Assembly (NCBI GenBank): GCA_009746045.1
Contig: RPFO01000015.1
Location: 1,264,529 to 1,328,528 of the forward strand
DNA length: 64,000 bases
Reading direction: 5' to 3'
Source of the DNA: Mesostigma viride
Lineage: Eukaryota > Streptophyta > Mesostigmatophyceae > Mesostigmatales > Mesostigmataceae
Of this stretch, positions 18,231 to 64,000 are shown in pieces (the first letter of the stretch is position 1; every line of letters begins with the position of its first letter). The position numbers and the translations under genes were made by a program. The notes beneath the pieces were generated by a model that saw only the letters and a list, made by a program, of their open reading frames with translations, made no database searches and was not told the origin of the DNA.

Positions 18231-19797
18231 TTAAAGTGTCGCCTGAACTAGAGGAAGCTTGTCATACTGAGGCCTAGCCTTGGCATACAGCTTGGTCAAA
18301 GCATCTGAAATGTTATCATTGTCGCGAACATGGTACAGCGAAACAGCATCACTATATTCTTTGGCACGAAGGAAGTCGAGCTTGCGCGTGCGCGCATAAG
18401 GATCAGCCAAAAAGTCAATCAGCGACTGCGAATCCGTGAAGATGGTGGTATCAACCTGTGGAATGACACGGCAAAACTTCAAACACCACCGAAGAACCGC
18501 ACGGAAATACATCAACTCCTCAGCAGTCTCGCAGAAGGCACGAGCCTCTGCATTGTCACTACCCACATCATACACCCGCCGATGTAAGCGAGAAAACCAC
18601 GCAAAGGGTGAAGGGGAAGATTCAGGGACATGGACAGTGGCAGAATTACTCAAAAGCACCACAGCGGCACAGCGCCCACGGAGCTTAGAGATATTAGCAC
18701 TATCCAAACTGCTATCACAATACGCGGACAAGTGAATAGGCCGCTCATAGTCCACCCCATGTAAGACCAACCCAGGGGAGGCAGAAATGTACTTACACAT
18801 GACATTGCGGGAAAGAGAGCACATCAAGTCATCTGGCAACCGAGCAAGCACCGCCAAGTCAGGGGAAACGGTAGAGACCAGCCAGTTCAGCTTACCCCGC
18901 AGAGAACCACACTCAGCAGGCTGAATATACTGACTAGTAAGGGATGAAATCTGAGTGATGAGCTCCTGAACATAGTCCCCCGCTGCACGCAGCGTCATCA
19001 CATATCTGCCAGAGGCATCCTTGGTGAGCATAGTGTCGACGCCACAGATCTTGACATACTTGTCCAAGACGCGGCGAATGACCTTGCCGACCGGGAAGTG
19101 CTGAGCAACAGTGGCACAAAACCAGTCTAGCCACGGTGTGGGGCCCATGCAGTCCACATCATCGACATGAATGAACACAAAAACTGGCTGCCCCTCCCAT
19201 GAGCCAACAAACAGAGAGGGGTCCAGGTCATGATAGTACATGTGCATCACATCAAGCAAAAGACGCTCGAGGCAAAGGCGCCAAATCCGAGGACCTGTCA
19301 CAGTACCGTCAACACCCTTCAAGAGACGGAGAAACTTCTTGCCCATGATAGGCTGCCACAAGGGAGGACAGCGCACATACAAGCGGGTCGTGCCAGCCCA
19401 CGCATTCTCAGCGAGCTTGGGATCACCATTCAAAAAAGCTTTGCTGAAATCCATGAGGGCTGACTCATACGGAAGTCCCTTGTTGAGCTGGCCTAGGTAG
19501 AAGGACAGGACCATGCGCCAATTATCCTTGATCAACCCAGGTGCTGAGATGGCATTGTCCGGAAGATCACTAGTACCTGAAAATTCTAGGACCACCGGGC
19601 GAACAAAAGGCACCCTAGTTGTTGTGTCAGGCACCAACTTACGCTCCAAAGTCCACTTGTGGCGCAAAAGGCGAGCACCACTGGGCACTTCATCAACCGG
19701 TTCAACAGCACGGTATGCAAGCCACCTTTCACCTGACGCAATAATGGCCTTAGTCCACCCATCTAGCCCCTCCTCCGTTTGACACTCCACATCAGCA
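18231..19797 (-). pseudogene. Copia-lineage reverse transcriptase-RNase H fragment (E)
   Basis: Open frame of 519 codons on the minus strand covering reverse transcriptase and RNase H. RT blocks: MDFSKAFLNGDP (first catalytic Asp), GPRIWRLCLE, and FIHVDDVDCMG (paired Asp). RNase H blocks: LSAYCDSSLDSAN, DNAEARAFCETAEE, IFTDSQSLIDFL and DALTKLYAKARPQ at the C-terminus. It aligns along its length with the pol of element B (18231-19790 versus 44800-46331), so it belongs to the same lineage. It keeps a YVDD-like HVDD where B has HGDD. Integrase and gag are absent: homology starts just inside the RT domain at about 19797, directly against an unrelated exon-like frame. No in-frame stop is present, so the truncation may be recent. 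Confidence 0.82.
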
Positions 19798-39191: not shown

Positions 39192-39463
39192 GATAGACCG
39201 ACTTGACAGTCAGCATTCATGAGCTTCCTCAGTACATTGTACTGGGCTGGGGCCTTGTGTGGCAGCTTTGTCAATGCATCAGCAGGGTTCTCCTCGCCAG
39301 GGATATGCTTCAAGTCAACCAAACTGGCCAACTCCTTCAGCAACAAATAATCCAGGTCCCGGCTTCTGGCCAGCTGCTGTAATCACCGTCTGGATGCCGA
39401 CCAACCCGTGAAGCTCCTGCTCGAGGTCGTCGATGCTCCGGTGCTCCGGAATGACGATGGTTT
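39192..39463 (-). pseudogene. Element A internal remnant: upstream-ORF piece fused to pol end
   Basis: On the minus strand, 39463-39375 matches part of the upstream ORF of B (40735-40826). It is joined through a short shared GCAG to the last about 60 codons of pol (LKHIPGEENPADALTKLPHK, matching 46150-46331). Everything between is deleted. At 39463 the minus-strand remnant switches, within a 2-base overlap, to the plus-strand LTR of element B. This is a large internal deletion typical of template switching during reverse transcription. Confidence 0.85.
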
Positions 39464-40449
39464 GGGAATGTCTGACATTGTCTCTGATGGAGAGATGTCT
39501 ATCTGGGGTTTTCATCTCAGTCTGAGGTTTCCCCAGATCTGTGGTTTGTGGGCGGGGTTCGATTCCCTGGTGCCGTCTTAAGGCGGAGTTTCACGGACTG
39601 GCTGACCCATCCACCATGCTGGTGAGGTGGCGACAGGTCCCCTGATTTTCCACGGTTGGAACGAGTATGGGAGCTTGTGTTTTGCATGTGCTTCGCGTAG
39701 ATGTTGTGTCTGGTTCGATAAGGGGCAGCAGACCGGCGCCGACTCCCGTCTGGGGGTCAGCAATGTTTTCTGATGAGCTGTTGTGGGTGATCTGTGGGGT
39801 TTCGCCTAAGGTCCTGAAGGTTGTACATACTTCTCAAGTTCTTAGCTGAACACCTATGGGCTGCCACAGTTGGCCAACCTCTTGTACATGGGTAACACAA
39901 CGAGCCTCCCGTGAAGGGATAGGGACTCATTGTAATTTGTTTGTGCTCCTGAGCCAGTATGGGTGCTATGTACATATAATAAGGAATCCAAGCTGACTGT
40001 CATGCCCAGCGGGTTGTGACTTGTAGTCGAGGGAGGATATCCAGTACCCATTGTGTGTGTTTGTATGTAGACTTGTGTGAGCTGCTACAGCTCAAGAAAA
40101 GAAAGGATTGGAGTTAGCGCCAAGCGCATTGGCGTGATCCTGATTCGGCATATCTCTGCGATTCCAGCGGCACCGGAACGAGTTCATTCCGACAAGTATC
40201 AAGAAAGTTATGGCGTTCCGACTTCCCGGTCGCGCGCGAGCGCGAGCCGGCTGTTCTTTCTGCCAATTGGGCATCTCTTGCGAGCCCGCCTCACGTGTTG
40301 TGCCTTGACTTGGCAAACGCGTGTACAAGCCTCAAGTGTGTGAGCGCTGTAACATTATCCAATTTTAACAAAGCTCCTTTTCCAACCATATTCACACATT
40401 GCTGCATTGCAACCATATCCTTCACATTGCGTGTGTAAGAACGTTAACT
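39463..40449 (+). mobile_element. 5' LTR of element B (5'-truncated, promoter segment missing)
   Basis: Matches the 3' LTR of B from 46434 on. It begins at the inversion junction, so the first about 100 bp of the LTR are missing. It also lacks about 360 bp, between GCCGGCTGTTCTT and GCCAATTGGGC, that contain the TATATAA box in the other copies. It ends at GTTAACT (40449), followed by CAAATTACAACC, a possible primer-binding site also seen in element C. Confidence 0.85.
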
Positions 40450-41562: not shown

Positions 41563-42740
41563 ATGGATGATGGAGCTATCAACCAACAAGCGGGCTTTAT
41601 GGGCTTCGCGCGGCGCGGCGCTGGGATGGATGTACGAGATGGACGCGGTGGACGCGATGGACGCGGGGACGGCCAGGCGCTGGGAGACCAGGCTGAAGTG
41701 CCAGATAATCAGAGCCAAGGATCGCAGGGCGGCCAGAACGCGCCAGCCGCAGATCAAGCGGCGCCTAAGCGACCAACGTTGCTGAGGGGTACGCGGTGCT
41801 AGGCCAGTTTCAGTCCATCAAGGACAATTGGCAGCCCCGGGATGCTGAGAGGATGTTAGAGGACATGAACTTGTACACGGAGATATACACCGGTGACAAG
41901 CTTCGCATCCTGGCGTCTAGTGCCTACATAAGGCAGTCGGCGAGGCGGCTGTTCAAGTTTGTTCGGGAGCGACACGCGGCGGGGGACACCTGGGCGGCGT
42001 TTATGACGCGACTCAGGTCGTTCCTGAGTGACAAGAGGACCATAGATGGGTCCCACCTGAAGCAAGAATACCTGGACTACAAGCCCATCAAGGGGCAGCT
42101 AGTGGTCCACGCCTTTGAAGACTTCGTCAAGCTGAGGGAGGACGCCATGGCCAAGGGCTTCTTCGTCGCAGATCGGATGGCCATGGGCGACTTTCTCAAG
42201 TCGCTGCAGCTGGATCCGGTCACCATGGATAATGTGACCATCCACATGCGACAGGTCCATGGCTGGGCAGCCATGACGGACCAGTTGTATGAGTGTTTCA
42301 GCGGCAAGTACGTGGGTGGTAAGCGCCCTCGTCAGGGTGATGAGGAGGCCACTGAACCCACGGTTAAGTCCATGAGGGGATCGGGCCACGGGGGCCCAGC
42401 GCCCTCGAGAGGGCCTGAGACCTCTTCAAGGGGTCGAGGAAGGTCCAGGAGGGGGCGTGACAGAAGGGCTGGACGGGGGACCCCGCCGAAGTCGGGACAT
42501 CCACAGTCCCAGTTTGACTTCAAGAGGGTGGGTGGTCCTCCCAAGGCTGGGCCCAGCAGTGGGACCTCACGGGACATCAGTCAGGTGGAATGTTATTTCT
42601 GCCAGGGGAAGGGTCACTTCAGGAATGAGTGTCCCTCGTACCTGAGGCAGGAAGGTCAGAGCAAGCCAGCTCAGGGTGGCAGCAAGGACAAGGCTGGTCC
42701 ATCCCAGGACAAGGGCAAGGGCAAGGCTGCTGATCATTGA
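41563..42740 (+). pseudogene. Element B gag (one frameshift)
   Basis: Capsid/nucleocapsid protein. The ATG at 41563 is in the same context as in element C. The Gly/Arg/Asp-rich N-terminus (to about 41790) is shifted by one base relative to the body, which continues GQFQSIKDNWQPRDAERM and matches C gag along its length (FLSDKRTIDGSHLKQEYLDY; FSGKYVGGK). The zinc knuckle CYFCQGKGHFRNECPSY (CX2CX4HX4C) is near 42593-42640, followed by a Lys/Gly-rich tail. It ends at TGA 42738-42740, in frame with pol. The frameshift near 41785-41795 (GGGGT run) probably inactivates this copy. Confidence 0.85.
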
Positions 42741-42791
42741 CTTGAGCCTGCACACATCCCTGAACCCTGGAGGGTGCCCCCAGGGGTGTGT
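42738..42791 (+). promoter_or_regulatory. Gag-pol readthrough site of element B
   Basis: Single UGA between gag and pol in the same frame. Eleven bases later an 11-bp stem can form: ACACATCCCTG (42752-42762) with CAGGGGTGTGT (42781-42791), one G-U pair, 18-nt loop. There is no other frame change to reach pol, so translational readthrough is the simplest route. Confidence 0.6.
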
Positions 42792-45700
42792 AATGAAGCT
42801 GCTAGTGACAGCAGTGAGGGGCAGCCCCATGCTCTAGTGAAAGAGCCTATTGGACACGATGGGGCAAGCTTGGTTACCACAGAGAGTATGCCAGCTGTAG
42901 CTGCAGTGGTTACTCGCCAACGTGCCCGCCATGGCGGTGCTGAGCCTGAGGTAGGACCTGGTGATGTGGACCCAGGTGGATCTCAGAAGCATTCTGACCG
43001 TGCAGGACTGGCACAGGATGGTCAGGATGAGGATAGGGCTGGAGACAGTCTGACAGGCACGACCCTGGTGCCTCCTGTACATAAGGGATCTGTACATACC
43101 TTGAGTGCTAATAATGACAATAAAAGGTTTTCTCTCTTGTATGACATTGCCTCAAGGTTGCATACCATGTTTGGCCATGCAGCTCAGTCTTTGCAAGTTG
43201 CTAGACGGCTGGGAGGAAGTGAGTTGTACTCCATCTGCCAACAGGTTGCTCAAGCTTGCAAGTGCAGGCTAGTTGCTAGAAAGCCCAAGCAGTCTCATGC
43301 CAGGACTCCTATTTTGCAGCCAGGCCATGTGCAGGTAGATATTCAGAGAATCAGGGGTTTGAAGCTGCTGGTGGCAGTGGACAGATATACCAAGTACAAG
43401 ACCCTAGAGATCCTGCCTGACATGGAGAAGCCTACATTGATTGCTGCTCTGAAGTTGACAAGGAGCAGGTACCCTGGGTTGGAGTTGTTGCAGTGTGACA
43501 TTCAGTTTGAGTGCTGTGAGAACCTGCCAGAGTTTCCAGAGTTGCTGATTACACCCAGGGAGAGCCACGGCCAGCAAGGGGTGGTGGAGAGAGCCATCCA
43601 AGAGATCAAGACTGTGCTGCTGGTGGAGAGGATTCCAAGGACGTCATCTGCCATTGTGACATCTGCATGGCTACGTTCTGTGGAGGACAGGCTGAACCTG
43701 AGGACTCCCATGTTCTTTGGTGACATTGCCATCAATCCTCTTATGCTGCATACCAGGATGCTGCCAGCTGATGCTGAGCAGGCATGGAAGGAGAAGCTAG
43801 AGGCCAAGTTCCTCAAGCTGAGGCAGAAAGACAAGGGCTGGAGTGTCCTAGAACCTAACGTTGGACAACAGGTTGTTGTGTGGAAGGAACCAAGCTTTCC
43901 AGGGAAACGTGGCAGCTGGCATGATGGGGTGGTGACCCGAGTAGAAGCCGCTGGCCATAAGTGCTGGGTGGCCATTGATGGCTCCCAAGCAGTGCACCGT
44001 CTGTCCTGGTCAAAGATCCGTCCCCGGGGAGGTAATCAAGGAGACCTCTTCCAGGTGCCCGCTGGTGTACAAGGCGGGGGTGACGTGGAGCTTCCTGATC
44101 AGGGTGCTACAGCTGTATCGAGCCCTCAGGGTGACCCTGGCCCGGCCCCTGGGGTACCTTCACATACGGTGGTTGGGCAAGCAGGCGGACAGGCTGCACC
44201 TCCGGAACGGCCCGACACCAGGCCTAGGGGTGTGCGTCTATCAGATATTGTACAGGCTTTGCAAAGAGCCAAGAAGGAGCCTAAGGTGTCCAAGCTTGTC
44301 CAGTTGGATGAACCTGAGGTAGCTGCCATGGAGATAGATACCAATGCACAGGTTTCTGTCATGGGACCTCAGCATACAGGAGAACTGCTGGTCGGAGAAC
44401 CAAGTTGCCCCTGGGTGTCTGATTTCAGTGGTAGGACGCATCTAAGGGTGTTGGGAGAGGTTACTGCCCCTGTCATGGGTGTGGATGTGACCTTCCTTGT
44501 CCTAGAGGACTATGATGGCCCTGTGATTTTGGGTCAGAATTTTCTGGGCAATCCTGGGATTTCTATCAGAGCTACAGCTCTGAGAAGAGATGGCTGGGGG
44601 ATGATTCCCCTAGAAAATTTCAGGACAACATTTCCAGTCAGGTGCAGGGCCAAGCCGGTCAAGGGTGTAAAATGGGATGAAGGGGAGGTGCCCCCAGCGG
44701 CCAGTTTGGTGATTCCAGCTGTGTTGCACCCCAGCAGTATTGGCATAACTCACAGGAGCCTTGCTGCACACTCTCCTTTGACATATGACCAGCTGGTCCA
44801 AGAGATGAGCTCGCCTACTTTGTTTGAGGCTTGGAAGCTCGCCTTCTCCAAGGCATTGGAGGAGTGGTTGCAGTTTGAGTGTGCTGCACCAACAGACAGA
44901 CGTCCCCCAGCATCAAGGAAGCTTGCTTTGAGATTTGTGCTGAAGAGGAAGGTTGTGGATGAGGTATCAGTGCCCCATGTCAGGCCTGTCCTGAATGAGT
45001 ATCACGGCACGGGGAGTCTGCCAGGAGAGGAGCTATACACGCCAGGGATGCTACACGACACATGGAGAATTTTGCTATGTCTCTACGTGGGGTTGCTGAA
45101 CAGGGGAGCAGCTATGTCATCAGTGCTGCTGGACTTCAAGAGGGCATTTTTAAAATCTGATCCAGAAGTGGCCAGGAGGGTGTGGAAGCAGGATGAGCCT
45201 TACTGTGTTGAGGTGCCTGCCATCTGGAAGCTGGAGCTGCATCAACAATTCCTGGTTATTCTGAAGGGCCTGGAAGGACTCAGGTCGAGCCCAATCATCT
45301 GGAGACTCACGCTGCAGGAAGCTCTGATCAGTGAGTGTGGCTTGAGAGTGTCTTCAGTTGATCCCTGTTTGCTGCTGGCCCAATGGGAGGGTCTGCCAGT
45401 GTATGCTAGTTTGCATGGAGATGATCTGCATTTGCTAGCCCCCACGACCTGGCTGAAGAAGTTTATTCCTGTCATCAGTGGCAAGTTTTCACTGGGCAAG
45501 GAGCTGTGGCAGGAGCCCAACAAGCCTGTAGTGTTCTGTGGAATGCAGGCTACCCTGTTCAGGAGGGACGGGGAGTGGAGTATCAGGCTTCAGGCTGGAG
45601 GAGATTATAAACAGACCATTGTGAAGGCCTTGCCAGAGAAGATCACCCAGGCTGCAGGACCTGAGTTGAGAGGCATGTGGGCCTGGTTTGCCAGCATCTG

Positions 45701-46331
45701 TGGTCCGTCTTTGATGGTCCATAGCAGAATGCCTGATGAGGTGCTTGAGGATGAGAAGCCTCGAGTCATAGCCCGGTTGGTGGAGAGTACCCCTGATCTG
45801 ATTTTGTCTGGGATTGACTTTGCCCAGCCTATCACCTTGGAGATCTTTGTTGACAGTTCCATGGATGCTCGCCAGGTTACCAAGGTCAGGGGGAGATCTG
45901 CTGCTCTGTTTGCTTTTTATCAGAGCAGGGCAAGTTTGTTCAGCTGGTACAGCAGACTGCAGAAGAGGGTCTGTATCAGTTCAGATGTGGCAGAATGCAG
46001 GGCCATATGCGAGGGGATCCAGTCCAGCCTGTACATAAAGGAGTTAATGCTGGAGCTGGCTTCAGTTACCCCTTGGACCTTGCAGATGGAGACGTTGTTG
46101 CTAACAGACAGCATGGGTATGGTCCAGTTTGTTCACAAGCAGCTGGCCAGGAGCCGGGACCTGGATTATTTGTTGCTGAAGGAGTTGGCCAGTTTGGTTG
46201 ACTTGAAGCATATCCCTGGCGAGGAGAACCCTGCTGATGCATTGACAAAGCTGCCACACAAGGCCCCAGCCCAGTACAATGTACTGAGGAAGCTCATGAA
46301 TGCTGACTGTCAAGTCGGTCTATCTGTCTAA
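42741..46331 (+). CDS. Element B pol: integrase-protease-RT-RNase H
   Basis: 1196 codons open in the gag frame after the gag UGA. Integrase (about 43160-44040): LHTMFGHA (weak zinc finger), VQVDIQ (43331), LQCDIQFE (43490), QQGVVERA (43574) giving D,D,E, and a C-terminal SH3-like part (QVVVWKEPSFPGKRGSW to HRLSWSKIRP). Aspartic protease follows (44331-44600): MEIDTNAQVSVMG, VTFLVLEDYDGPVILGQNFL. RT (44800-45600): LLDFKRAFLKSDP, SPIIWRLTLQ, SLHGDDLHLL (HGDD replaces YVDD). RNase H (45830-46300): IFVDSSMDA, DVAECRAICEG, LLTDSMGMVQF, ENPADALTKL. Known copia elements place protease before integrase; here it sits between integrase and RT. The frame is intact. Relatives: fragment E and element C. 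Confidence 0.9.
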   Translation, partial: LEPAHIPEPWRVPPGVCNEAASDSSEGQPHALVKEPIGHDGASLVTTESMPAVAAVVTRQRARHGGAEPEVGPGDVDPGGSQKHSDRAGLAQDGQDEDRAGDSLTGTTLVPPVHKGSVHTLSANNDNKRFSLLYDIASRLHTMFGHAAQSLQVARRLGGSELYSICQQVAQACKCRLVARKPKQSHARTPILQPGHVQVDIQRIRGLKLLVAVDRYTKYKTLEILPDMEKPTLIAALKLTRSRYPGLELLQCDIQFECCENLPEFPELLITPRESHGQQGVVERAIQEIKTVLLVERIPRTSSAIVTSAWLRSVEDRLNLRTPMFFGDIAINPLMLHTRMLPADAEQAWKEKLEAKFLKLRQKDKGWSVLEPNVGQQVVVWKEPSFPGKRGSWHDGVVTRVEAAGHKCWVAIDGSQAVHRLSWSKIRPRGGNQGDLFQVPAGVQGGGDVELPDQGATAVSSPQGDPGPAPGVPSHTVVGQAGGQAAPPERPDTRPRGVRLSDIVQALQRAKKEPKVSKLVQLDEPEVAAMEIDTNAQVSVMGPQHTGELLVGEPSCPWVSDFSGRTHLRVLGEVTAPVMGVDVTFLVLEDYDGPVILGQNFLGNPGISIRATALRRDGWGMIPLENFRTTFPVRCRAKPVKGVKWDEGEVPPAASLVIPAVLHPSSIGITHRSLAAHSPLTYDQLVQEMSSPTLFEAWKLAFSKALEEWLQFECAAPTDRRPPASRKLALRFVLKRKVVDEVSVPHVRPVLNEYHGTGSLPGEELYTPGMLHDTWRILLCLYVGLLNRGAAMSSVLLDFKRAFLKSDPEVARRVWKQDEPYCVEVPAIWKLELHQQFLVILKGLEGLRSSPIIWRLTLQEALISECGLRVSSVDPCLLLAQWEGLPVYASLHGDDLHLLAPTTWLKKFIPVISGKFSLGKELWQEPNKPVVFCGMQATLFRRDGEWSIRLQAGGDYKQTIVKALPEKITQAAGPELRGMWAWFASICGPSLMVHSRMPDEVLEDEKPRVIARLVESTPDLILSGIDFAQPITLEIFVDSSMDARQVTKVRGRSAALFAFYQSRASLFSWYSRLQKRVCISSDVAECRAICEGIQSSLYIKELMLELASVTPWTLQMETLLLTDSMGMVQFVHKQLARSRDLDYLLLKELASLVDLKHIPGEENPADALTKLPHKAPAQYNVLRKLMNADCQVGLSV

Positions 46332-47451
46332 AAGCTGAGAGCTGGGTGCTTAAGTCTCTGGATATCAGGCTGGGAGCTTGATTGTACATAATCCTGAGCA
46401 CACCTTGAGGGGTGAGACATGTCTCTGGTGTGGGAATGTCTGACATTGTCTCTGATGGAGAGATGTCTATCTGGGGTTTTCATCTCAGTCTGAGGTTTCC
46501 CCAGATCTGTGGTTTGTGGGCGGGGTTCGATTCCCTGGTGCCGTCTTAAGGCGGAGTTTCACGGACTGGCTGACCCATCCACCATGCTGGTGAGGTGGCG
46601 ACAGGTCCCCTGATTTTCCACGGTTGGAACGAGTATGGGAGCTTGTGTTTTGCATGTGCTTCGCGTAGATGTTGTGTCTGGTTCGATAAGGGGCAGCAGA
46701 CCGGCGCCGACTCCCGTCTGGGGGTCAGCAATGTTTTCTGATGAGCTGTTGTGGGTGATCTGTGGGGTTTCGCCTAAGGTCCTGAAGGTTGTACATACTT
46801 CTCAAGTTCTTAGCTGAACACCTATGGGCTGCCACAGTTGGCCAACCTCTTGTACATGGGTAACACAACGAGCCTCCCGTGAAGGGATAGGGACTCATTG
46901 TAATTTGTTTGTGCTCCTGAGCCAGTATGGGTGCTATGTACATATAATAAGGAATCCAAGCTGACTGTCATGCCCAGCGGGTTGTGACTTGTAGTCGGGG
47001 AGGATATCCAGTACCCATTGTGTGTGTTTGTATGTAGACTTGTGTGAGCTGCTACAGCTCAAGAAAAGAAAGGATTGGAGTTAACGCCAAGCGCATTGGC
47101 GTGATCCTGATTCGGCATATCTCTGCGATTCCAGCGGCACCGGAACGAGTTCATTCCGACAAGTATCAAGAAAGTTATGGCGTTCCGACTTCCCGGTCGC
47201 GCGCGAGCGCGAGCCGGCTGTTCTTCTAAGGCGGACGTGAATATTTGCCGACGACATATGGGGTCGACAGTAATTCCTGGGCTGACAGGAATTAGGTGCT
47301 GTACCTACGACGGTATTGGATTAATACGTCGTACGCAGGAAATAGGAACCTTAACCTGTGGTCTGTTGGTACCGCAGGCTTAGTCCTGGACTTCTAGGTG
47401 CAGATGCAATAGTCACTGTGGACTGTGCTCTCTGGTCACTGTGCCTGTATG
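46332..47451 (+). mobile_element. 3' LTR of element B, first part
   Basis: Follows the pol stop. It contains the 747-bp segment absent from the LTR of A, and matches the 5' LTR of B (39463 onward) almost base for base. Interrupted at 47451 by CACTA-2; the LTR resumes at 52047 after the TG duplication. Confidence 0.85.
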
Positions 47452-47477
47452 CACTAGGAAGTCGGAAAAAATTCGTC

Positions 47478-47790
47478 CTGAGATATCTTGAGATTTTTCT
47501 GAGTTTTTTTGAGATTTACCTACACAAATCTTGAGAAATCCTGAGAAATCCTGAGAAATCCTGAGAAAATCCTGAGAAATCCTGAGATAAATCTTGAATT
47601 TTCCTGAGATTGCCCTGATTTTTCCTGATTTTTTTTGGCTTCACAAAATCTGGTAAGTGCACACCTCGGGTCCTGAGATTTCTGGTGAAAAACTCAGGTC
47701 TTGAGATTTTGACTTTGTAGTGAAAATCTCAGGACAAAATCTCAGGACAATCTCAGGAAAATCTCAGGACAAAAAAACGAGTAGAATCTC
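47478..47790. repeat. Left subterminal CTGAG array of CACTA-2
   Basis: CTGAGAAATC and inverted CTCAGGACAA units, looser than in CACTA-1, with several decayed units (TTGAGA). Confidence 0.85.
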
Positions 47791-48389
47791 AAGAAAATCA
47801 AGAACATGCACAGGCGAATTCTCCAGCCATTCTGGGACAAAAAAATGGTGTTATCAGGGACCGTCAGAAATACAACAATGCAAGATGATTACAACAGGGG
47901 CATGACTCACAATCAGTGCATTTATTACATTGATAAATATTATTTAAAAAATCTTTTATTCATAGGCAAAAAATAAATCACAACAAAAAGAGGATTGTTT
48001 CTTCATCGTTTGGCAGATCTTGTAGATCATTTGGTTCTTCATATACTCTGCCAAACTGTGCTTCGTTGCACATTTACCTGCACGCATAAACCAGGAAGGG
48101 GGAAAAACAGCATTAAACAGGACCATGATTAGAAACGCTGGGCTGCAGCATGTGCACATGTACACCTAACTAGACCAAAGGCATAGCAAACAACATCATG
48201 CTCGGCATAAAAAAAGATACTTCTGACTGGTACAAAACATTGAAAGGGTGACCCAAGTGAAAGCCTAGCACCGCCATTATTGAGATGTGCAAGACCAAGA
48301 AACCACGACATTGCATATGACCGATGCATTGAAAAAGGGAAAACACGTTTATTAACTGTGACGCTCCAGGATAACTAGACTAAATTTCT

Positions 48390-48985
48390 TCAGGGCAAGG
48401 GACTAATTGAATTCAGCAAGCAAGCGTACATGCGTGCAAGGACGAGAGTGGCTAAATAAGGAAGCAAGGGCCTAACAAAGGAAGCAAGGGACTTATTAGA
48501 TTCAGCAAGCAAGCAATTGCAAGCATGCAAGGAAGAGGGGCTAACAAAGGAAGCAAGGGCCTCACAAAGGAATCAGGGGACTGATTCCATTCAGCAAGTG
48601 GTCAAGCATGCAGGGAAGGAACGGCCTAACCAAGTAGGCAAGGTCATATCAAAGGAAGCAAGGCATTAATTAAATTCAGCAAGCATGCGAGGAAGAGTGG
48701 CTTACAAAGGAAGCATGGGACTAAGAAAGGAAGCAAGGGACTAATTACATTCAGGAAGCACGCATGCAAGGAAGCAAGGGAATAAAGCAAGGAACTAATC
48801 AAATTCAGCAAGCGGCTAAACAACCAAGCAAGGGCCTAATAAAGGAAGAAAGCAACCACGCAAAGAAGCAAGCAAGCACGCAAAGACGGAAACAAGCATG
48901 CAAGGAAGCAAGGGGTTTATCGAACTCAGCAAGCAAGCATGCAAGGAAGCAAGGAGCAAGTGAGGGACCAAGGGACTAATCAACT
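48390..48985. repeat. Degenerate minisatellite
   Basis: Irregular units built from GGAAGCAAGGGACTAATT, AAATTCAGCAAGCAAGC and GCATGCAAGGAAG. The period is variable (about 50-60 bp). It lies in CACTA-2. Confidence 0.85.
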
Positions 48986-50837
48986 TTATGACACTTACCA
49001 CGCAGAAGGGACAACCTCATGACCGCGGAGAAGATAACATTCCGTCCCTCCTGTTGCGATTGCAAAGGGGAGAAAGAATAGTAGTGATGTAAGGAATGAA
49101 TTCCAGTGCAAAATTAGGAAAATACCTTCAATAACAAAGCTAGTAAGTAGGCAAGGTAATTAAAAAGTAGGTAGCAAACTGATGACAACATGCACATACT
49201 CACGCATGGACCAACCAAGTTAGTATCTAATCTACTATGTGGCTTATGAGGAAGCACCATGAAACATTTGACCTTACTGGCTTCATCAGAACACGTCTAG
49301 ATGCTTTTCCTTTGCAAAGATAGTCGCAATTGACGCTTGGGGCTTGCATGGGATTCAGGTCTGCATGGACGTGCTTTGACAACAAACGGGCATGTACGCA
49401 CAAAAATGCCCAAGGACGGTACTTCATGATGGTCATCTTCATGAAATTGACCACGCATGTAAGAGGACAAGAAATCAAGTATTCAGAGTTCATGCTATAC
49501 TAAGAAACCAGCTTTTGCTCAGAATGCCGCTTTTGCGGTCTATGGGCCTTCCAATGCAACCTGCCAAGCAATTCTCATAAGTATCCTTGCTCAGCTACGC
49601 AGTTGCTCATTTTCCCGGCTCCATTCCTCTTCGATCACAGCCTGTCCATGACGGCCTTGTAGGTTTTGGATAGCTCCAGAATCTCGCTCTGTTTATTCTC
49701 CGTTACTTATGTCACTCACCTGTCGTCGCTACTAGAACCGCTTCTAGTGCGGTTCTCGCTGCCACCCCTGCTGCCACACCTGCAGCGCTTGTTATTCGGT
49801 GGTTGCATTCATTGGTTACGTATGGAAATCGGTTGCCCCATCGCTCGAGCTAGCGTGTATGTGCCCTCACTGCCCGCTAGCCCCAGCACTGACTTGACTG
49901 CGAACAACGGCTACTGTAGGGCTACGTCAAACGCGTTTTTTTGAATTTGCGCAAAAAAAAAGATTGCGACTAGGTCACATCCGTAGCCAGCGGCAGGCGG
50001 AATGTCTCGAGTGATTCCAGCCAAGCGATCTTCCGTATTGTCATGACATCTTACCTTTCCACTGGTTACTACTCGTCTCAAAGCCTTTTAGAACGGTCGG
50101 AGCCGCAAACTGCCGATAAATTTACAGGTACAGTAACTAGTATTCACCAATGAAAGCCACAGGCATATAAAAAACCGCCGTCCTGCCAGACCCTAGAAAA
50201 CGCTTGGTCCTGCCTTTGCCGGACAACCATTGGAGCAGGTTATAAAGTGCGACAACGATTTCTGATTGTTGGCTGACAGACTGACAGCCGACAATTATTA
50301 ACGCAAAGTCACTAAAGCAACTAGGCAGTGAGAACATTCTACAAAAGAGCTCTTAGTTCGGGCTTTATAGAAGTAGTACCTGCCTGTTAAAAATTGGAAC
50401 AAGGATACGGTTCCGGCATCCGTTTATTCCGAAGCCGGTACGGGCAAGGCTAGGGAACCGGCGTGGGAATAAACTGAACTGAACATAACTGAAATAAAGG
50501 CCGTTATGGTGCCGTGAAATAGCCGCATGACGACAGTGCCGTTCCAAACTTTCAACTTCGCGCCCTACCTCTCTTAACCGTTACCTGGTAGACCGTTGGT
50601 CCAACGAGCGAAAAATTTAGAAAGGTTGCGATAAGGCAACGCGACCTTGCACTTAGCCGCACCCATGAACGCCTTCAGCAGCCATGTTAGGCAACACAAC
50701 CCTGCACCTAGCCGCACCATTCCATAAACGCCTTCATCAGCCATGTTAGGCCGGAATAGACACGGCATTTCCACTTTGGGTCTCGCACTAGTCAAGTCAC
50801 TTGCTCAGATAGTATATCACTAGCTCTGACCCGCCTT

Positions 50838-51225
50838 CAAGCGGTTTGGTAGTGCAGCGGCTGTGTGTGGTTCTACCAAACGACTTTCAGACATATGTGC
50901 CTACTCCATGGCCCCATCGGGGCAAGTAGCGGGGGCGCTTGCAGAATGTAAGTGATGCAGGCCTATACCGAACCCCGTCTTTGCCGCCATGAACCATGAC
51001 TTCGGACGGAGCTGCGATGACGTAAAGATGGTTGAAGGTCGCGGGTTGCTGTTCTGTAGTTGCCCCAATGCTGTTCTGTAGTGCTCCGATTGATGTGAGC
51101 TGATAGCGGCCTCTTCAATACCTTGAGTTTTGCACGTGCTCACGTGGGGCCATGGAGTAGGCACATATTTCTCAAAGTCGTTTGGTAGAACCACACACAG
51201 CCGCTGCACTACCAAACCGCTCGCG
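50838..51225. mobile_element. Inverted-repeat (MITE-like) element within CACTA-2
   Basis: The left arm (about 50838-50913) and right arm (about 51149-51225) are reverse complements over about 76 bp with about three mismatches; outer ends AGCGGTTTGGTAGTGCAGCG. The loop is about 235 bp. No clear flanking duplication. Confidence 0.75.
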
Positions 51226-51769
51226 TGGCAAGAGCCGCACTGCTGGCAAGTCCATGGCAGCGGCTAGTGCCAGCGCATCGAGCCCTGATGACATAGCTAG
51301 TGTTTCGTCGTTCAGCAGCAACGGTGAGGCATGCATTCCCTCACAATGGAGAAGTGAGAGGCAGCGTGCTGTAGTAAATTATGCGGACAACTCTGACAGT
51401 GCTGCATACACTGATGAGGAGTGGCTTTGATTATATTTCTGGCAATGATGCCTGTAATGTAACTTGTTGTGTGCTTGTCGCACTGCATTATCAAGGAGAC
51501 AACCAGCGCAGGCCAGAAATCGGGAGAATCCGGACCATGCATTATATTTATTTATTTCCAATGAACATGTGTGTCAACTGCATCATTTCTGCATCCACAT
51601 ATAATGCATAAGTGTCCTGTCTTCATGCACTTGAGAGTTCTCAAGTGTCATGCTCAGTGTCCTGATTTTCCTGATTTTTTGTGCCATGCTAAGTGTCCTG
51701 ATTTTCCTGATTTTTTCTGATTCAGCGGGTTTTCTCAAGATCTTGAGATTTTTTGTGTTGTTCCGACAT

Positions 51770-52035
51770 TTTTCTCAGGATCTCAGGATTTTCTCAGGAT
51801 TCTCAGTGTTTCTCAGTGTGTGGCGAGACGCATCTCAGGCACTTCTCAGGATTCTCAGGAGAAAGTCCTGATATAATCTCAGGATTCCTGAGAAAAATCT
51901 CAGAAAAAACTCAGGATTCTCAGGATTTCTTGAGAAAAAAATCAGGAAATCTCAGGAAATCCTGAGAAAATCTCAGGAATCCTGAGAAAAATCTCAGAAA
52001 AAACTCAGGACCTGAGAAAAATCTCAGAACCCGAC
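51770..52035. repeat. Right subterminal CTGAG array of CACTA-2
   Basis: CTCAGGATTCTCAGGA and CTGAGAAAAATCTCAG units in both orientations up to the terminal repeat. Confidence 0.88.
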
Positions 52036-52044
52036 TTCCTAGTG

Positions 52045-52372
52045 TGGCAGACCTACTGTATAGGAGCTGGGCGCTGTACAGGTAGTGAATACTGTACCGG
52101 GGGTGTTATTACTGAGCAGGCCTCCTAGGCTGCTCAGGACTAGCAAGCACAGTGCACAAGTATATAAACAATAGGGCTAGTGCCAATTGGGCATCTCTTG
52201 CGAGCCCGCCTCACGTGTTGTGCCTTGACTTGGCAAACGCGTGTACAAGCCTCAAGTGTGTGAGCGCTGTAACATTATCCAATTTTAACAAAGCTCCGTT
52301 TCCAACCATATTCACACATTGCTGCATTGCAACCATATCCTTCACATTGCGTGTGTGCTAAGAACGTTAACT
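52045..52372 (+). mobile_element. 3' LTR of element B, second part
   Basis: Continues the LTR after CACTA-2. Contains the TATATAAA promoter box at about 52161 and ends GTTAACT at the LINE junction. Reverse complement of 32843-33170 in element A. Confidence 0.88.
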
Positions 52373-57206: not shown

Positions 57207-58874
57207 TTAGGGCAACCTTGAGAAGTGGGGTCTGTGCATCCTGGGCGACAATTTCCAAGGGTCGTTGCAGCTAGCGCAGTTGCAAATGCCATAGCCTGGC
57301 CGAACACCGTAAACTGACCGACGTGATACCTTGGCAGCATTTTGCACCTGAGTTGACCGTTGGTGCTTGACAGCACTGTGGCTGACAGGTCGCTGTCCAC
57401 GTCGTTGTCGGCTTGCTCGAGGCCTCGCGCCAGCACCGGACTTGGCAGTCCAGGACTTAGAAAAATTTGGCAGCTTGGTCGATTTCGCCCTTGGGTCACG
57501 AATTTGTTCCCCCTCAGTTAGGCTGGCAGCGTTCGAGCGCCGCGCCTTTGGTCTGGTCGCCGGACTTGGGTTACTAGCACCAGTATCACCTGGTATGCTG
57601 GCGGCGACAACGCGCTCCGCCTGCACTGGGCTGTTCTGGACCGCGGTTTCTGGAAGTACTTCAGCGTCTGACACGGACTTCTCCATTGCGCTGGAAACTT
57701 CTCGAATTGGCGTGAACTTCCACTGGGCCGGCGCAGAGTATATAAAGCCACGCAGTGTGCGAGTAATGCCCAGTAGGCCGCCCCCGATCCCGCATACACG
57801 GGCAAGCATGGCCAGTATGACCGTTAGGCCCACGGCCAGCCACTCCGCCGCGTGTCCCGAGGCACGTGAGATGCTGCGCTCGCTGCTCGCCATTTTCTGC
57901 CCTTGACAGGCAGCGTCGACGTCCTTGAAGCTCGTCGCCGAAGATTTCAGCTCTGGGATGGCGTCCATCGCTGCGTCCGCACCGCGCGCGGGCAAAAAGT
58001 AGGTGTTGTTCCTCGTCACGATGCTGCAGGGCCTGCTGTTCAGCACAGCAACCTGCTTGGCGAGGTCGACGTTGTGGCCATCCTTGACGAGCTGGCCGAC
58101 AGATAAAAATCGGGTGCTCAGCTTTGGAACGAGCAGCGCGTTTTGGAGGTGCACGTCTGCCTCCTGGCCCGGCAGCTTCAGCTTGACAGTCCCAATGGCT
58201 GTCGCCTTCAGTTTGCCGCCTGAGCCGGCGATTTCCCTGTTGTGAGGGTGCAGGCACACGAAATCCGACGGGCATGGCGTCATGTGACAGCTCGCTGCAG
58301 AATCCAGCACCCAGCTGGTCGGTGCTTTCTTTTCATACTGCGTGAGTGCAGCAGCATCCGACGGCGATGGCGACTCGGCGATGGTGGCGAAGACGAAGCC
58401 GGACCGCTCCGCAGCCTCCTCGGTGATACGCGCCTCGCTGGCACCTGGTGAGTGCTCCTTTCTCGCTTGGTTCCGTCGCGTTGCCTTGTTCTTGCGTTCT
58501 TGCTTCAGCTCCGGATGCTTCTCCCAGCACTGGGTGTCCACGTGCCCGGCCTTCTTGCAGTAATTGCACCGCCTCTTTCCTCCACTTTTCTTCGTAGTAG
58601 TGTGGAAAACCTGGCCGTTAGGGGAGCCCTCCTTCTTTGCTTGAGCAGAACGCCTTCCGTGCAGTAGCTCCTCCGCCTCCAGCAGCGCAGTCTTGACCTC
58701 CTTTAGCGAATCCTCCTCTCCAGTTAGGACCTTGACCAGGTCACAATAGGCCGATGCTAAGGCCTTCAACACAGCCTTGATTTCTTCCCATTTCCTCAGA
58801 GACCGCCCATCAAACGTTGTGATGGACTTGCTTGTTGCCCGGAATTGCTTGTAGCACGCTTCCTTGGTAGCCAT
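57207..58874 (-). CDS. Element D gag-protease with foreign C-terminal segment
   Basis: 555 codons; ATG at 58874, about 75 bases after the PBS. Residues 1-75 are the C-terminal part of a copia gag (LKALASAYCDLVKVLTGEED, ALLEAEELLHGRR); most of the capsid domain is deleted. Zinc knuckle C103-x2-C106-x4-H111-x4-C116. The protease active site SWVLDSAASCHMTP (Asp191; DSAA where DSGA is usual) lies in the classical copia position after the zinc knuckle, with LLVPKLSTRFLSVGQLVKDG following. From about residue 330 it is not retroviral: a hydrophobic segment (about 344-370, VGLTVILAMLARVCGIGGG) fits a membrane span, then about 170 residues rich in Ser, Arg and Lys, ending CNCASCNDPWKL. This may be captured host sequence or a scrambled remnant. 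Confidence 0.85.
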   Translation of the reverse strand: MATKEACYKQFRATSKSITTFDGRSLRKWEEIKAVLKALASAYCDLVKVLTGEEDSLKEVKTALLEAEELLHGRRSAQAKKEGSPNGQVFHTTTKKSGGKRRCNYCKKAGHVDTQCWEKHPELKQERKNKATRRNQARKEHSPGASEARITEEAAERSGFVFATIAESPSPSDAAALTQYEKKAPTSWVLDSAASCHMTPCPSDFVCLHPHNREIAGSGGKLKATAIGTVKLKLPGQEADVHLQNALLVPKLSTRFLSVGQLVKDGHNVDLAKQVAVLNSRPCSIVTRNNTYFLPARGADAAMDAIPELKSSATSFKDVDAACQGQKMASSERSISRASGHAAEWLAVGLTVILAMLARVCGIGGGLLGITRTLRGFIYSAPAQWKFTPIREVSSAMEKSVSDAEVLPETAVQNSPVQAERVVAASIPGDTGASNPSPATRPKARRSNAASLTEGEQIRDPRAKSTKLPNFSKSWTAKSGAGARPRASRQRRGQRPVSHSAVKHQRSTQVQNAAKVSRRSVYGVRPGYGICNCASCNDPWKLSPRMHRPHFSRLP

Positions 58875-58960
58875 GGTGTCTTCAGTCGCCAATGGAACTG
58901 GTGGATGTCTCTGGGTTCACAGTGGTCTTCTTGTTCCTCAGTAACAAACCTCCGATACCA

Positions 58961-59795: not shown

Positions 59796-60743
59796 TTCCC
59801 CGCCAAAGTCACGAGATACATTCTCAAGGCACGTTGTAATTACCAGGCTATGGCGAATATTACCCCCAAACCTATGCATCACCTTCGTCCCTAAGTGTTC
59901 CCGGACCCGCCGGACCACTGACATCCGTCACAGGTGGCGCGGCGCCGTGAAATTCGACCGTTAGTCAAACTACCTGACAGGTCGGGTAGTTTACGGACTA
60001 TGGGTTAAGGAGTAGCGGCCATGTGTTAGCCAGCCACCATATCTTGCTTGAGGCTTAGGTAAAGGTAAGAATTGCAACTGAGTCAGCCGACTTTGTGCAA
60101 GGAACACACTTACAAGAGTTAATATTGCCTGGCAAGCAATATTATTCTACTAAGCTACTTGGCTTGTAGAGATTCTACTTCCGGTTACTACAATCCAGAA
60201 ACGGGTTCATTCTGATGAGTATTGCTCGAGATATGAGCAAGATACTGTTCTACTACATTCTACTTGGATTCGGTGATTCTACGGTGGTTCTTCAAGTGAC
60301 GCGTGGCATACGGCGTCTTGTCACAGTGTACGATAGGACATTTAGTCTCCGACACTGCGGTCTATTCAATGCTATTGATTAGACGTAACAAATAGTGACA
60401 GGACTTGTGCGACAGGACACTGATGTGACTATTTATGGATAACGAGTCGAGATCTGCTGGTCCAGAGTGAAGGACAGCAATATTGTGAGATGATCTGTCC
60501 TATCAGTCATCTGGATGTGACTGCGTCACAATTAGTATATAACGAGCAGGACGCTGCCACTTGGTAGCACCACTTTCCCTGCACCTGTGTCCTCGCACCT
60601 TCGGCGACGGTTCTCACGTGCCTCGTGCGTTCTGTGCTGGTAACCATAACCAGCAACGTAAACCTATTGATTAATATAACTACTTCCTCTGTAGATATTA
60701 ATCAGTGCAGGCTGAACCACAGTTCAGCCACAGTTTCATTAAC
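59796..60743 (+). mobile_element. Flank of D and 5' LTR of element C
   Basis: After the GTAAA duplication there is about 200 bp of unassigned sequence, then the probable 5' LTR of element C. Its start cannot be fixed without the second LTR. It holds a block related to B's LTR (GGGTTCATTCTGATGAGTAT near 60206 versus GAGTTCATTCCGACAAGTAT), a TATATAA box at 60536-60542, and ends CATTAACT, followed by CGAATTACAAGC as in B. Confidence 0.6.
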
Positions 60744-60851
60744 TCGAATTACAAGCGAGTTCGTAATCTACTGATTACGGCATTGATTTCTGGTGTCGGC
60801 AATTTTTACGGTGTTTTTCCATTATATGGGAAACACGCGTGAATATCGTGA

Positions 60852-61539: not shown

Positions 61540-62589
61540 ATGCAGGGTTTGGAAGACGGCGAGATACGCGGCGAACAAATGCTGCGGGGTCAGAATTTTA
61601 ATCAGAATTTTAATCGCCCAGCAGCAGCAGAGCAGCCCCGCAGAGCCAAGGCCCAGGAGGGCTTTGCTATTCTTAACCAGCTTCCCAGTCTCAAGGAGCA
61701 CTGGACTGTTAAGGATAAGGATATTACCATTAGGCACCTTAAGGGATATAAGGGCTTATATAATGGTAACAATCCTCTGCAGGTGCTGTGTATGTCACAG
61801 TACCTTCTTAAGTGTCCCAAGAGGGTGCAGAAGTATGTAAATGACAAGTTTGAGGATGGAGATTCCTGGGAGGTTTTTATAGCTGAGTTTGAGGTGTTCC
61901 TAGATGATAAGAGGGCTAGTGATGGCTCCTTTTGGAAGAAGGAGTACATTGATTTCAAGGCTGAGGGTCTGATTCTGCAGGCATTTGAGGATTTTCAGGA
62001 GCTCAGGCACAATTGTGCTGGCAAGGGGTATGTAGTGTCAGATGAGATTGCCATGGATGATTTCCTAGGTAGCCTGGGATTGGATGAGGTCACCTTGGAT
62101 AACCTGCAGGTGCACATGCGTACATGCACCACCTGGGCTGCTATGGTGGCCAAGATCAAGGATTATTTCAGGGGCAAGTATGTGGGAGGCAAGAAGGAGG
62201 CAGACAAGGCCAGGGAGAAGCAGAAGGAGAAGGATAAGGTGGATATGGCAGCTGCAGCAGGGGGCAGTGTTCCCAAGGTCAAGGGCAACCAATGGGGGGG
62301 GCAGCCCTCCAACGGTTATGGTCCACCAAGGTCAGGGCCTTCCAAGCGGGGGGGCTTCCAGGCCAAGGGCTTCAGTGGCTTCAAGCGTCGTGGAGGTCCT
62401 TCCCAGGAGCAGCCAGCGGCTCAGCGTCCCAGATTTGATTTCAACAGGGTGGGGTCCCAGCGGGGACCACCTGGGGTGGGGACACCTCGTATCACATGTT
62501 ATTTCTGTCACCAGCAGGGCCACATCCGTAAGGACTGCCCTAGCTGGCGTAAGCAAAGGGGCCAAGGTGGGTATAACAACCCAACCTGA
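61540..62589 (+). CDS. Element C gag
   Basis: Intact 349-aa capsid/nucleocapsid protein; ATG at 61540, shortly after the CATCGGCATCGGCATCG leader. It aligns with B gag: GFAILNQLPSLKEHW, EVFLDDKRASDGSFWKKEYI, FEDFQELRHNCAGKGY, FRGKYVGGKK. A Lys/Glu-rich then Gly/Arg-rich linker leads to the zinc knuckle CYFCHQQGHIRKDCPSW (CX2CX4HX4C) near the C-terminus. It ends at TGA 62587-62589, in frame with pol. No damage is seen, so this copy may be functional in the part shown. Confidence 0.88.
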   Translation: MQGLEDGEIRGEQMLRGQNFNQNFNRPAAAEQPRRAKAQEGFAILNQLPSLKEHWTVKDKDITIRHLKGYKGLYNGNNPLQVLCMSQYLLKCPKRVQKYVNDKFEDGDSWEVFIAEFEVFLDDKRASDGSFWKKEYIDFKAEGLILQAFEDFQELRHNCAGKGYVVSDEIAMDDFLGSLGLDEVTLDNLQVHMRTCTTWAAMVAKIKDYFRGKYVGGKKEADKAREKQKEKDKVDMAAAAGGSVPKVKGNQWGGQPSNGYGPPRSGPSKRGGFQAKGFSGFKRRGGPSQEQPAAQRPRFDFNRVGSQRGPPGVGTPRITCYFCHQQGHIRKDCPSWRKQRGQGGYNNPT

Positions 62590-62633
62590 CGGGCTCAGCC
62601 TTCCCTGGGCTTGCTAGGGTCCGCCAGGGAGGG
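62587..62633 (+). promoter_or_regulatory. Gag-pol readthrough site of element C (UGA CGG plus stem-loop)
   Basis: UGA followed by CGG, one of the known leaky stop contexts. Nine bases after the stop, CCTTCCCTGG (62599-62608) can pair with CCAGGGAGGG (62624-62633), 10 bp including one G-U, 15-nt loop. Pol is open in the same frame directly after the stop. Confidence 0.65.
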
Positions 62634-64000
62634 GGCTAAGAGTGACCCCCCCATTACTCTGGATGAAGTTGATTTGCTCCCTGCACAGGTTGAGAGTCTC
62701 CCACTTAAGGTTGAGAGTCCCCCTGCACAGGTTGAGGGTGCATCCATGGAGGAAGAACACAATGGGGTAGTGACTGGGTCTTCCCACGTCACCATGGTGA
62801 AAGCAGTTACCACAAGGCAACAACGTTCCCACATGGCTCTTGGAGGTAGTTTGCGTACTCCTTCAATGTTGGAGCGTGGAAGTCCTGCCTTAGGGCAGGA
62901 AGCTCCTCTAGAGGAGGAGGGTGAGGCTGATGGCCTGAATGATGCAATGGGGAGCATGGTTGTAAGTGAGCGTGCTGTTCCCAGCACCTCACCTGTATTT
63001 AATAAAATGTCTCTTGTGTCAAACATTGCATTGAGATTGCATCACATGTTTGGTCATGCTGCCCAGGCACTCCAGTTTGCAAGGAGGCTGGGAGGGACAT
63101 CTTTGTTTAATGCAGTAAAACAGGTTGCTGAGGCTTGTTCCTGTAGGCTGGTTGCTCCCAAGCCTAAGAAGTCTCATGTCAGACAACCTGTGTTGCAGCC
63201 TGGATATGTACAATGTGATATCCAAGAAATCAGGAAACTGATTTTGTTGGTTGGTGTTGATAGATATACCAAGTACAAGGTGCTGGAGCTGTTGCAAGAC
63301 AAGTCTAAGCCATGTTTGGTGGCTGGGCTCCAGGCTATCAGATCCAGAATGAAACCAGTGATCCAGCTGCAGTGTGATTTAGAATTTGAGTGCTGCATGG
63401 GGAATGAAGACCTCCCTGAGTTATTTATTGTACACAGGGAGTCCCATGGCAGTCAAGGCGTGGTGGAGAGGACAATCAGAGAACTCAAGACTATTCTGCT
63501 GACGGAGAAGAAGATTCCAAGATTGGTTCCAGCTATTATCAAGACGGCCTGGTTAAGGTCAGTTGAGGACAGATTGAATGTCAGGGCATCCATGTATGTT
63601 GGAGAGGTCCCTGTGACTCCATTATCATTGCATCTTCGGGAGCTCCCTACTGAGGTTGAGCAAGCCTGGAAAGATAGCCTTATGTTCAAGTTTGCCAAGT
63701 TGAGGCAGAAAGACAAGGGCTGGAGTGTTCTGAAACCTGTTGTTGGCCAGAGGGTAATTGTGTGGAAAGAGCCCAAGCTTGCAGGCAAGCGTGGTAGCTG
63801 GCACCCTGGAGTAGTGACCAGGGTGGAACTAGCTGGGCACAAGTGCTGGGTGAAGATGGAGGATCCTCCCCAGAATGTGCACCGTCTGTCGTGGTCATAT
63901 GTACGTCTAAGGGGTGCTGAAGCAGAGGCAGTAGCTCCTGATGTGACAACCTTGCCAGTTGGTCATGACGTCATCCCTGATCATCACGTTCAAGCTGGAA
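62590..64000 (+). CDS. Element C pol, integrase part (continues past the window edge)
   Basis: Open frame in register with gag from 62590 to the right edge, at least 470 codons. A Glu/Pro-rich linker comes first (with repeats of VESPPAQVE type), then integrase: LRLHHMFGHAAQALQFARRL (weak zinc finger), VQCDIQEIRKL (about 63210), LQCDLEFECC (63368) and SQGVVERTIRELKT (63452) for the D,D,E triad. The SH3-like C-terminal part follows (RVIVWKEPKLAGKRGSW, VHRLSWSYVRL). No protease motif occurs between gag and integrase, in agreement with the unusual order in B. Protease, RT and RNase H should follow beyond 64000. No stop or frameshift is seen. Confidence 0.85.

Follow-up and report, generated by a model that had tools for sequence, protein, structure and literature searches.

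Among the characters that define the superfamilies of long terminal repeat (LTR) retrotransposons is the order of domains in pol. Ty1/copia elements carry protease, integrase, reverse transcriptase and RNase H in the order PR-INT-RT-RH, and the order in Ty3/gypsy elements is PR-RT-RH-INT. A precedent for an altered order is provided by the Gmr1-like elements (Goodwin and Poulter 2002), which are reported to be gypsy-like with the copia order PR-INT-RT-RH; they reportedly differ from the elements described here in that their protease still comes first. The pol of Tca2 of Candida albicans reportedly has the ordinary copia order. Here, a 64,000-nucleotide stretch of the Mesostigma viride genome (contig RPFO01000015.1; hereafter the window) was found to carry element B, an LTR retrotransposon whose pol is ordered INT-PR-RT-RH, which matches neither textbook layout. 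No description of a lineage with this pol order was found in the open-licence full texts searched, and the parts covered of the Mesostigma genome paper give no pol order (PMC6947507).

The element B pol is a single open frame of 1196 amino acids (aa) that encodes, from the N- to the C-terminus, an integrase, a retropepsin-like domain, RT and RNase H:

42741..46331, forward strand: element B pol, sharing the gag frame, stop codon at 46329-46331
43149..44030, forward strand: integrase, with HHCC, D200 D253 E283 and a GKRG..W C-terminal part
44316..44624, forward strand: retropepsin-like protease, with DTNA at 44337-44348 and VILGQNFL at 44523-44546
44838..45740, forward strand: reverse transcriptase, DD at 45420-45425, RVT_2 type in five of six relatives, below cut-off
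45828..46280, forward strand: RNase H, catalytic residues placed by alignment

The earlier note on this DNA had reported these domains in one frame, and motif reading located the integrase, RT and RNase H and the protease-like motifs in the places it had assigned. The integrase D,D,E residues (aa 200/253/283) lie at nucleotides 43338, 43497 and 43587, with the HHCC zinc site N-terminal of the triad; IDTNAQVSVM begins at 44334 and VILGQNFL at 44523. Motif reading combined with family alignment placed the RT catalytic D at 45132 and HGDD at 45414, and the RNase H D, E and D at 45852, 45993 and 46107. The protease-like motif reads DTNA, not DTG or DSG, and the motif pair with its spacing occurred in 0 of 20,000 shuffles of the B pol protein.

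The order is shared by six families in a whole-pol alignment (6/6: B, C = L033, P0002, D = L040, E = L041 and F = L043), among which identity goes down to about 31%, in support of the proposal that they form a lineage of their own in which pol has been rearranged. Common to all six are an HHCC and D,D,E integrase, a linker of low conservation, the protease segment, RT and RNase H; the integrase D-D gap is 52 residues and the D-E gap 29-31 residues in the five families read from DNA. The full copy of element C bears out the observation, made on its truncated copy in the window, that integrase directly follows gag, and it places the protease between integrase and RT. P0002 (ENA, 1214 aa) is 62% identical to B, and the best of its 38 scored matches in the M. 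viride genome reached 63-64%. Among the Mesvir1 proteins (jgi), P0004 (family F) matched the window's genome at 100% over 414 aa, and P0006 is 98% identical to the family-D fragment of the window. A Prorocentrum lima transcript (P0005) is 86% identical to P0004 over 277 aa, which may reflect contamination or horizontal transfer. No relative was found by scans of viral contigs (three queries) and genome contigs (one query), or by a PHROGs search with B pol.

Copies were sought in 439.9 Mb of genome sequence (2243 contigs); only the best candidates were scored, so that copy counts are lower bounds biased to intact copies. All 39 scored places of B pol were 100% identical and free of stops. Family C gave 95 matches, 18 of them at 100% over the full 470-aa query (17 of these within a 1198-aa frame), families D and E jointly gave 83 (25 in the 1233-aa frame of D, nine in the 1194-aa frame of E), and family F gave 101 (ten within a 1190-aa frame); shortened and stop-bearing copies are also included among the matches of these four families. 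Because copies are near-identical, the families have probably been active recently. Among seven further D- or E-like copies, the protease segment was seen in at least one frame in six: L044 and L047 form a distinct subfamily with DTQA, L049 (D-like) and L050 (E-like) also read DTQA, L045 reads DPQA and the frame of L046 is broken inside the segment. In the seventh, L048, none of the motifs was seen. Among 30 B copies with near-identical pol (L001-L030), the length of the gag open frame varies and is under 391 aa in 22, which may reflect assembly errors or real defects; a few (L018, L029 and part of L026) carry unrelated upstream sequence.

In families B, C and F, pol follows one in-frame UGA that ends gag, the contexts being UGA CUU (B), UGA CGG (C) and UGA CUA (F; L043 1755-1757). 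UGA CUA and UGA CGG have been named among the typical contexts of leaky stops, the remaining UGA CNN contexts being considered less leaky (PMC11166343). A UGA likewise separates gag and pol in Tca2 (PMC2194720). RNA folding 3′ of the UGA showed nothing unusual in B or C, the two families checked. In D and E, the pol frame is −1 relative to gag and overlaps it by 37 nucleotides (D, L040 1970-2006) and 40 nucleotides (E, L041 2061-2100); both gags terminate in AAAC plus the stop codon, and no classical frameshift heptamer was found in the two overlaps. One B copy, among four with flanks fetched, was clear at both ends (L037 with L022): its LTR is 693 bp long with inverted ends, AGTTAACG and GTTAACT, and TCTAC stands on both sides as a 5-bp target duplication. 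LTRs, target duplication, DDE integrase, RT and RNase H, the features by which an LTR retrotransposon is recognized, were thus all found; no primer-binding site was identified by eye. The window's own B copy has a deleted 5′ LTR, an interrupted 3′ LTR and inverted internal pieces upstream.

We infer stop-codon readthrough, frameshifting, dimerisation and proteolysis as follows. Gag would be produced by itself, while some of the ribosomes would go past the gag stop and yield Gag-Pol, by reading through the UGA in families B, C and F and by a −1 shift within the short overlap in D and E. The retropepsin-like domain, just N-terminal to RT, would dimerise in the particle and cut the polyprotein, which would free the integrase lying between Gag and PR. 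The RNA would be copied by RT and RNase H, and integrase would insert the LTR DNA, duplicating 5 bp of the target. We put at roughly 85% the probability that the elements belong to a deep lineage of recently active LTR retrotransposons with the layout gag-INT-PR-RT-RH, expressed and processed in this way. We lean slightly towards the further proposal of a deep, still active lineage apart from Ty1/copia and Ty3/gypsy, defined by INT-PR-RT-RH together with a catalytic Asp-Thr-Asn/Gln retropepsin, the members of which would have switched from one to the other of UGA readthrough and −1 frameshifting in making pol.

What lies between integrase and RT appears to be a retropepsin-like domain, the evidence being consistent and weak piece by piece. 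Pfam searches on the relatives gave matches to this segment only below cut-off, the nearest being gag-asp_proteas; a PDB profile search gave ASPRV1 as a weak top hit, and a profile of three sequences found only PerR (E 1.4); Ddi1 was also among the weak matches to the segment. A structural model with a modest mean predicted local distance difference test (pLDDT) score of 50.6 was the basis of the fold search, from which an earlier AlphaFold model built from three sequences (pLDDT 37.8) was kept out; Foldseek gave only retropepsins in the 50 rows listed, and the profile and VIA-align 2 rows were mostly or only retropepsins, all of these matches being weak. The absence of a protease fold, which the earlier note had named as grounds for refutation, was therefore not what the profile and fold searches returned, but their matches are too weak to settle the fold. 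The active site reads D-T-[NQ]-[AS] across the six families (DTNA in B, C and P0002, DTNS in F and DTQA in D and E), and its Asp and Thr are invariant. A second protease upstream of integrase would also have spoken against the proposed order; a scan of gag and linker frames in B, C, D, E and F (gag only partly covered in B and F) did not find the motif pair, which within the gag and pol frames scanned occurred only between integrase and RT. Isolated weak strings without the second motif were DTWA (B gag), DSLT (B gag-INT linker), DTAA (D gag) and DSG (D INT-PR linker).

The label of copia lineage given by the earlier note draws its support from integrase before RT and from RVT_2, which matched five of the six pols (E 1.6e-4 to 0.076, all below the 31.6-bit cut-off) and gave no match in B. 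The rve profile matched two of six below cut-off (P0002, E 0.15; F, E 0.18). An integrase profile of five families had four PDB hits, two retroviral integrases (E 0.13 and 0.57) and two coatomer subunits (E 0.46 and 1.2), and PDB searches with an RT profile or the B pol protein (P0001) found no relative. With Ty1/copia the families share integrase before RT and RNase H, an RVT_2-type RT (below cut-off), a zinc-knuckle gag and a 5-bp target duplication (one copy read at both ends), whereas they differ in the protease after integrase, the lack of a Pol_BBD match and of DSG/DTG, the LTR ends AGTTAAC...GTTAACT and a long RT branch that separates them from the genome's own copia elements. With Ty3/gypsy they share a protease immediately upstream of RT and gag-asp_proteas as nearest protease profile, but integrase precedes the protease and lies N-terminal to RNase H in 6/6, and the sole RT profile matched is RVT_2. 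The lineage is thus copia-like in RT type and integrase position, but has neither the copia order nor a copia-type protease match, nor the gypsy order. A midpoint-rooted RT tree of 10 rows included three canonical copia elements, which belong to the same genome and were chosen out of 150 RVT_2 matches. The six families and the P. lima transcript (of which only the RT is known) were set apart from these three by a branch with 100/100 support, the lengths on the two sides of the root being 1.7 and 2.5 changes per column. No relative with a standard order was found among the six; the three canonical copia, which carry Pol_BBD, rve and RVT_2 in the ordinary order (3/3), form a separate RT group.

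How the protease came to this position has two possible answers. The copia protease may have moved, or, after loss of the original protease, a copia-like element may have gained a new one from a gypsy-like or cellular source, to which we give somewhat less than even odds. In favour of such a gain, the segment matches gag-asp_proteas, ASPRV1 and Ddi1 and not Pol_BBD, which gave no match in 6/6 pols at E up to 10 (program filters drop most matches above 0.1) and detects all three canonical copia controls at 1.9e-9 or better; in addition, circular permutation of the gypsy order PR-RT-RH-INT gives INT-PR-RT-RH. However, matches this weak do not allow the domain to be placed, and the RT match is to RVT_2. 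Such a gain is compatible with the favoured explanation given above and bears on origin only.

Three points weigh against the proposed reading: the Gly of D-T-G is replaced by Asn or Gln in six families, every match to retropepsins is weak, and Pfam on B pol at E up to 10 found no rve, protease or RVT_2, the sole match being a weak Agenet at the integrase C-terminus (E 0.077). The profile search advised by the earlier note was thus negative on the B copy and positive on the relatives, below cut-off only; profile searches with a single sequence do not seem to reach a lineage this divergent. Since the active site reads Asp-Thr-Asn/Gln-Ala/Ser instead of Asp-Thr-Gly, catalysis by the domain is only predicted. 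A retropepsin fold with a structural or binding role, and cleavage of the polyprotein by a host or trans-acting protease, is an unlikely alternative, to which the absence of D-[ST]-G from every protease segment scanned and the DPQA of one E copy lend some weight. Against it stand the invariant Asp and Thr, the lack of any other protease candidate seen in the element and the selection between B and C: the ratios of nonsynonymous to synonymous differences (pN/pS) are 0.92 and 0.74 in the linkers, 0.38 in integrase, 0.35 in the protease core, 0.29 in RT and 0.21 in RNase H, the protease segment being about as conserved as integrase and the flanking linkers not. That the segment is instead a conserved non-protease domain with a chance likeness to retropepsins is improbable, since profile, fold and motif evidence, weak as each match is, agree on fold family and register, and the motif pair did not arise in the shuffles. 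Ever since the families last shared an ancestor, the proposed retropepsin has probably been inherited together with the adjoining domains, as suggested by the pN/pS values and by protease identity, which tracks integrase and RT identity over 15 family pairs. This congruent divergence, the same order in six families and 39/39 scored B places led us to reject a single chimera or assembly artefact, for which the damaged 5′ LTR and inverted upstream pieces of the window copy might have spoken.

The existence of a third order, in a lineage both numerous and conserved, shows that pol order is not fixed and that surveys can miss such lineages. In a large plant survey, elements with unexpected domain order were removed in every case as likely mispredictions (PMC6317226). 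The host is placed at the base of the streptophytes (PMC6947507), so that the lineage bears on early plant retroelement diversity. It also offers a natural setting in which to test what the position of the protease, and the Gly in its DTG triad, contribute.

The remaining retroelement features of the window are as follows:

40112..40449, forward strand: element B 5′ LTR with internal deletion, ending CGTTAACT at 40442-40449; start set by homology to 47079
41796..42740, forward strand: open-frame part of element B gag, CCHC zinc knuckle at 42588-42638, stop UGA at 42738-42740, then CUU
47079..47451, forward strand: first part of element B 3′ LTR, beginning AGTTAACG
52046..52372, forward strand: second part of element B 3′ LTR, beyond a 4.6-kb insertion, ending CGTTAACT
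60117..60744, forward strand: element C 5′ LTR, AGTTAAT...ATTAACT, by motif only
61540..62589, forward strand: element C gag, stop UGA at 62587-62589, then CGG
62590..64000, forward strand: element C pol, truncated at the end of the window; the full copy elsewhere (L033) has integrase-protease-RT-RNase H
18231..19790, reverse strand: 5′-truncated family D RT-RNase H; the full family copy (L040) has the permuted order

The portion of the window's B gag upstream of 41796 is in a different frame. The insertion in the B 3′ LTR (47452-52045) has inverted ends CACTAGGAAGTCGG and CCGACTTCCTAGTG with an apparent 8-bp duplication and looks like a DNA transposon. Beside the B 5′ LTR, 39192-39464 holds inverted pieces of the pol end and leader, possibly an autointegration product. 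On the reverse strand, 57207-58892 encodes a copia gag of the ordinary kind, in which a zinc-knuckle-like motif is followed, as is usual, by a Pol_BBD protease (E 8.1e-14). A tandem repeat of about eight 48-bp units, open on both strands, occupies 670-1060.
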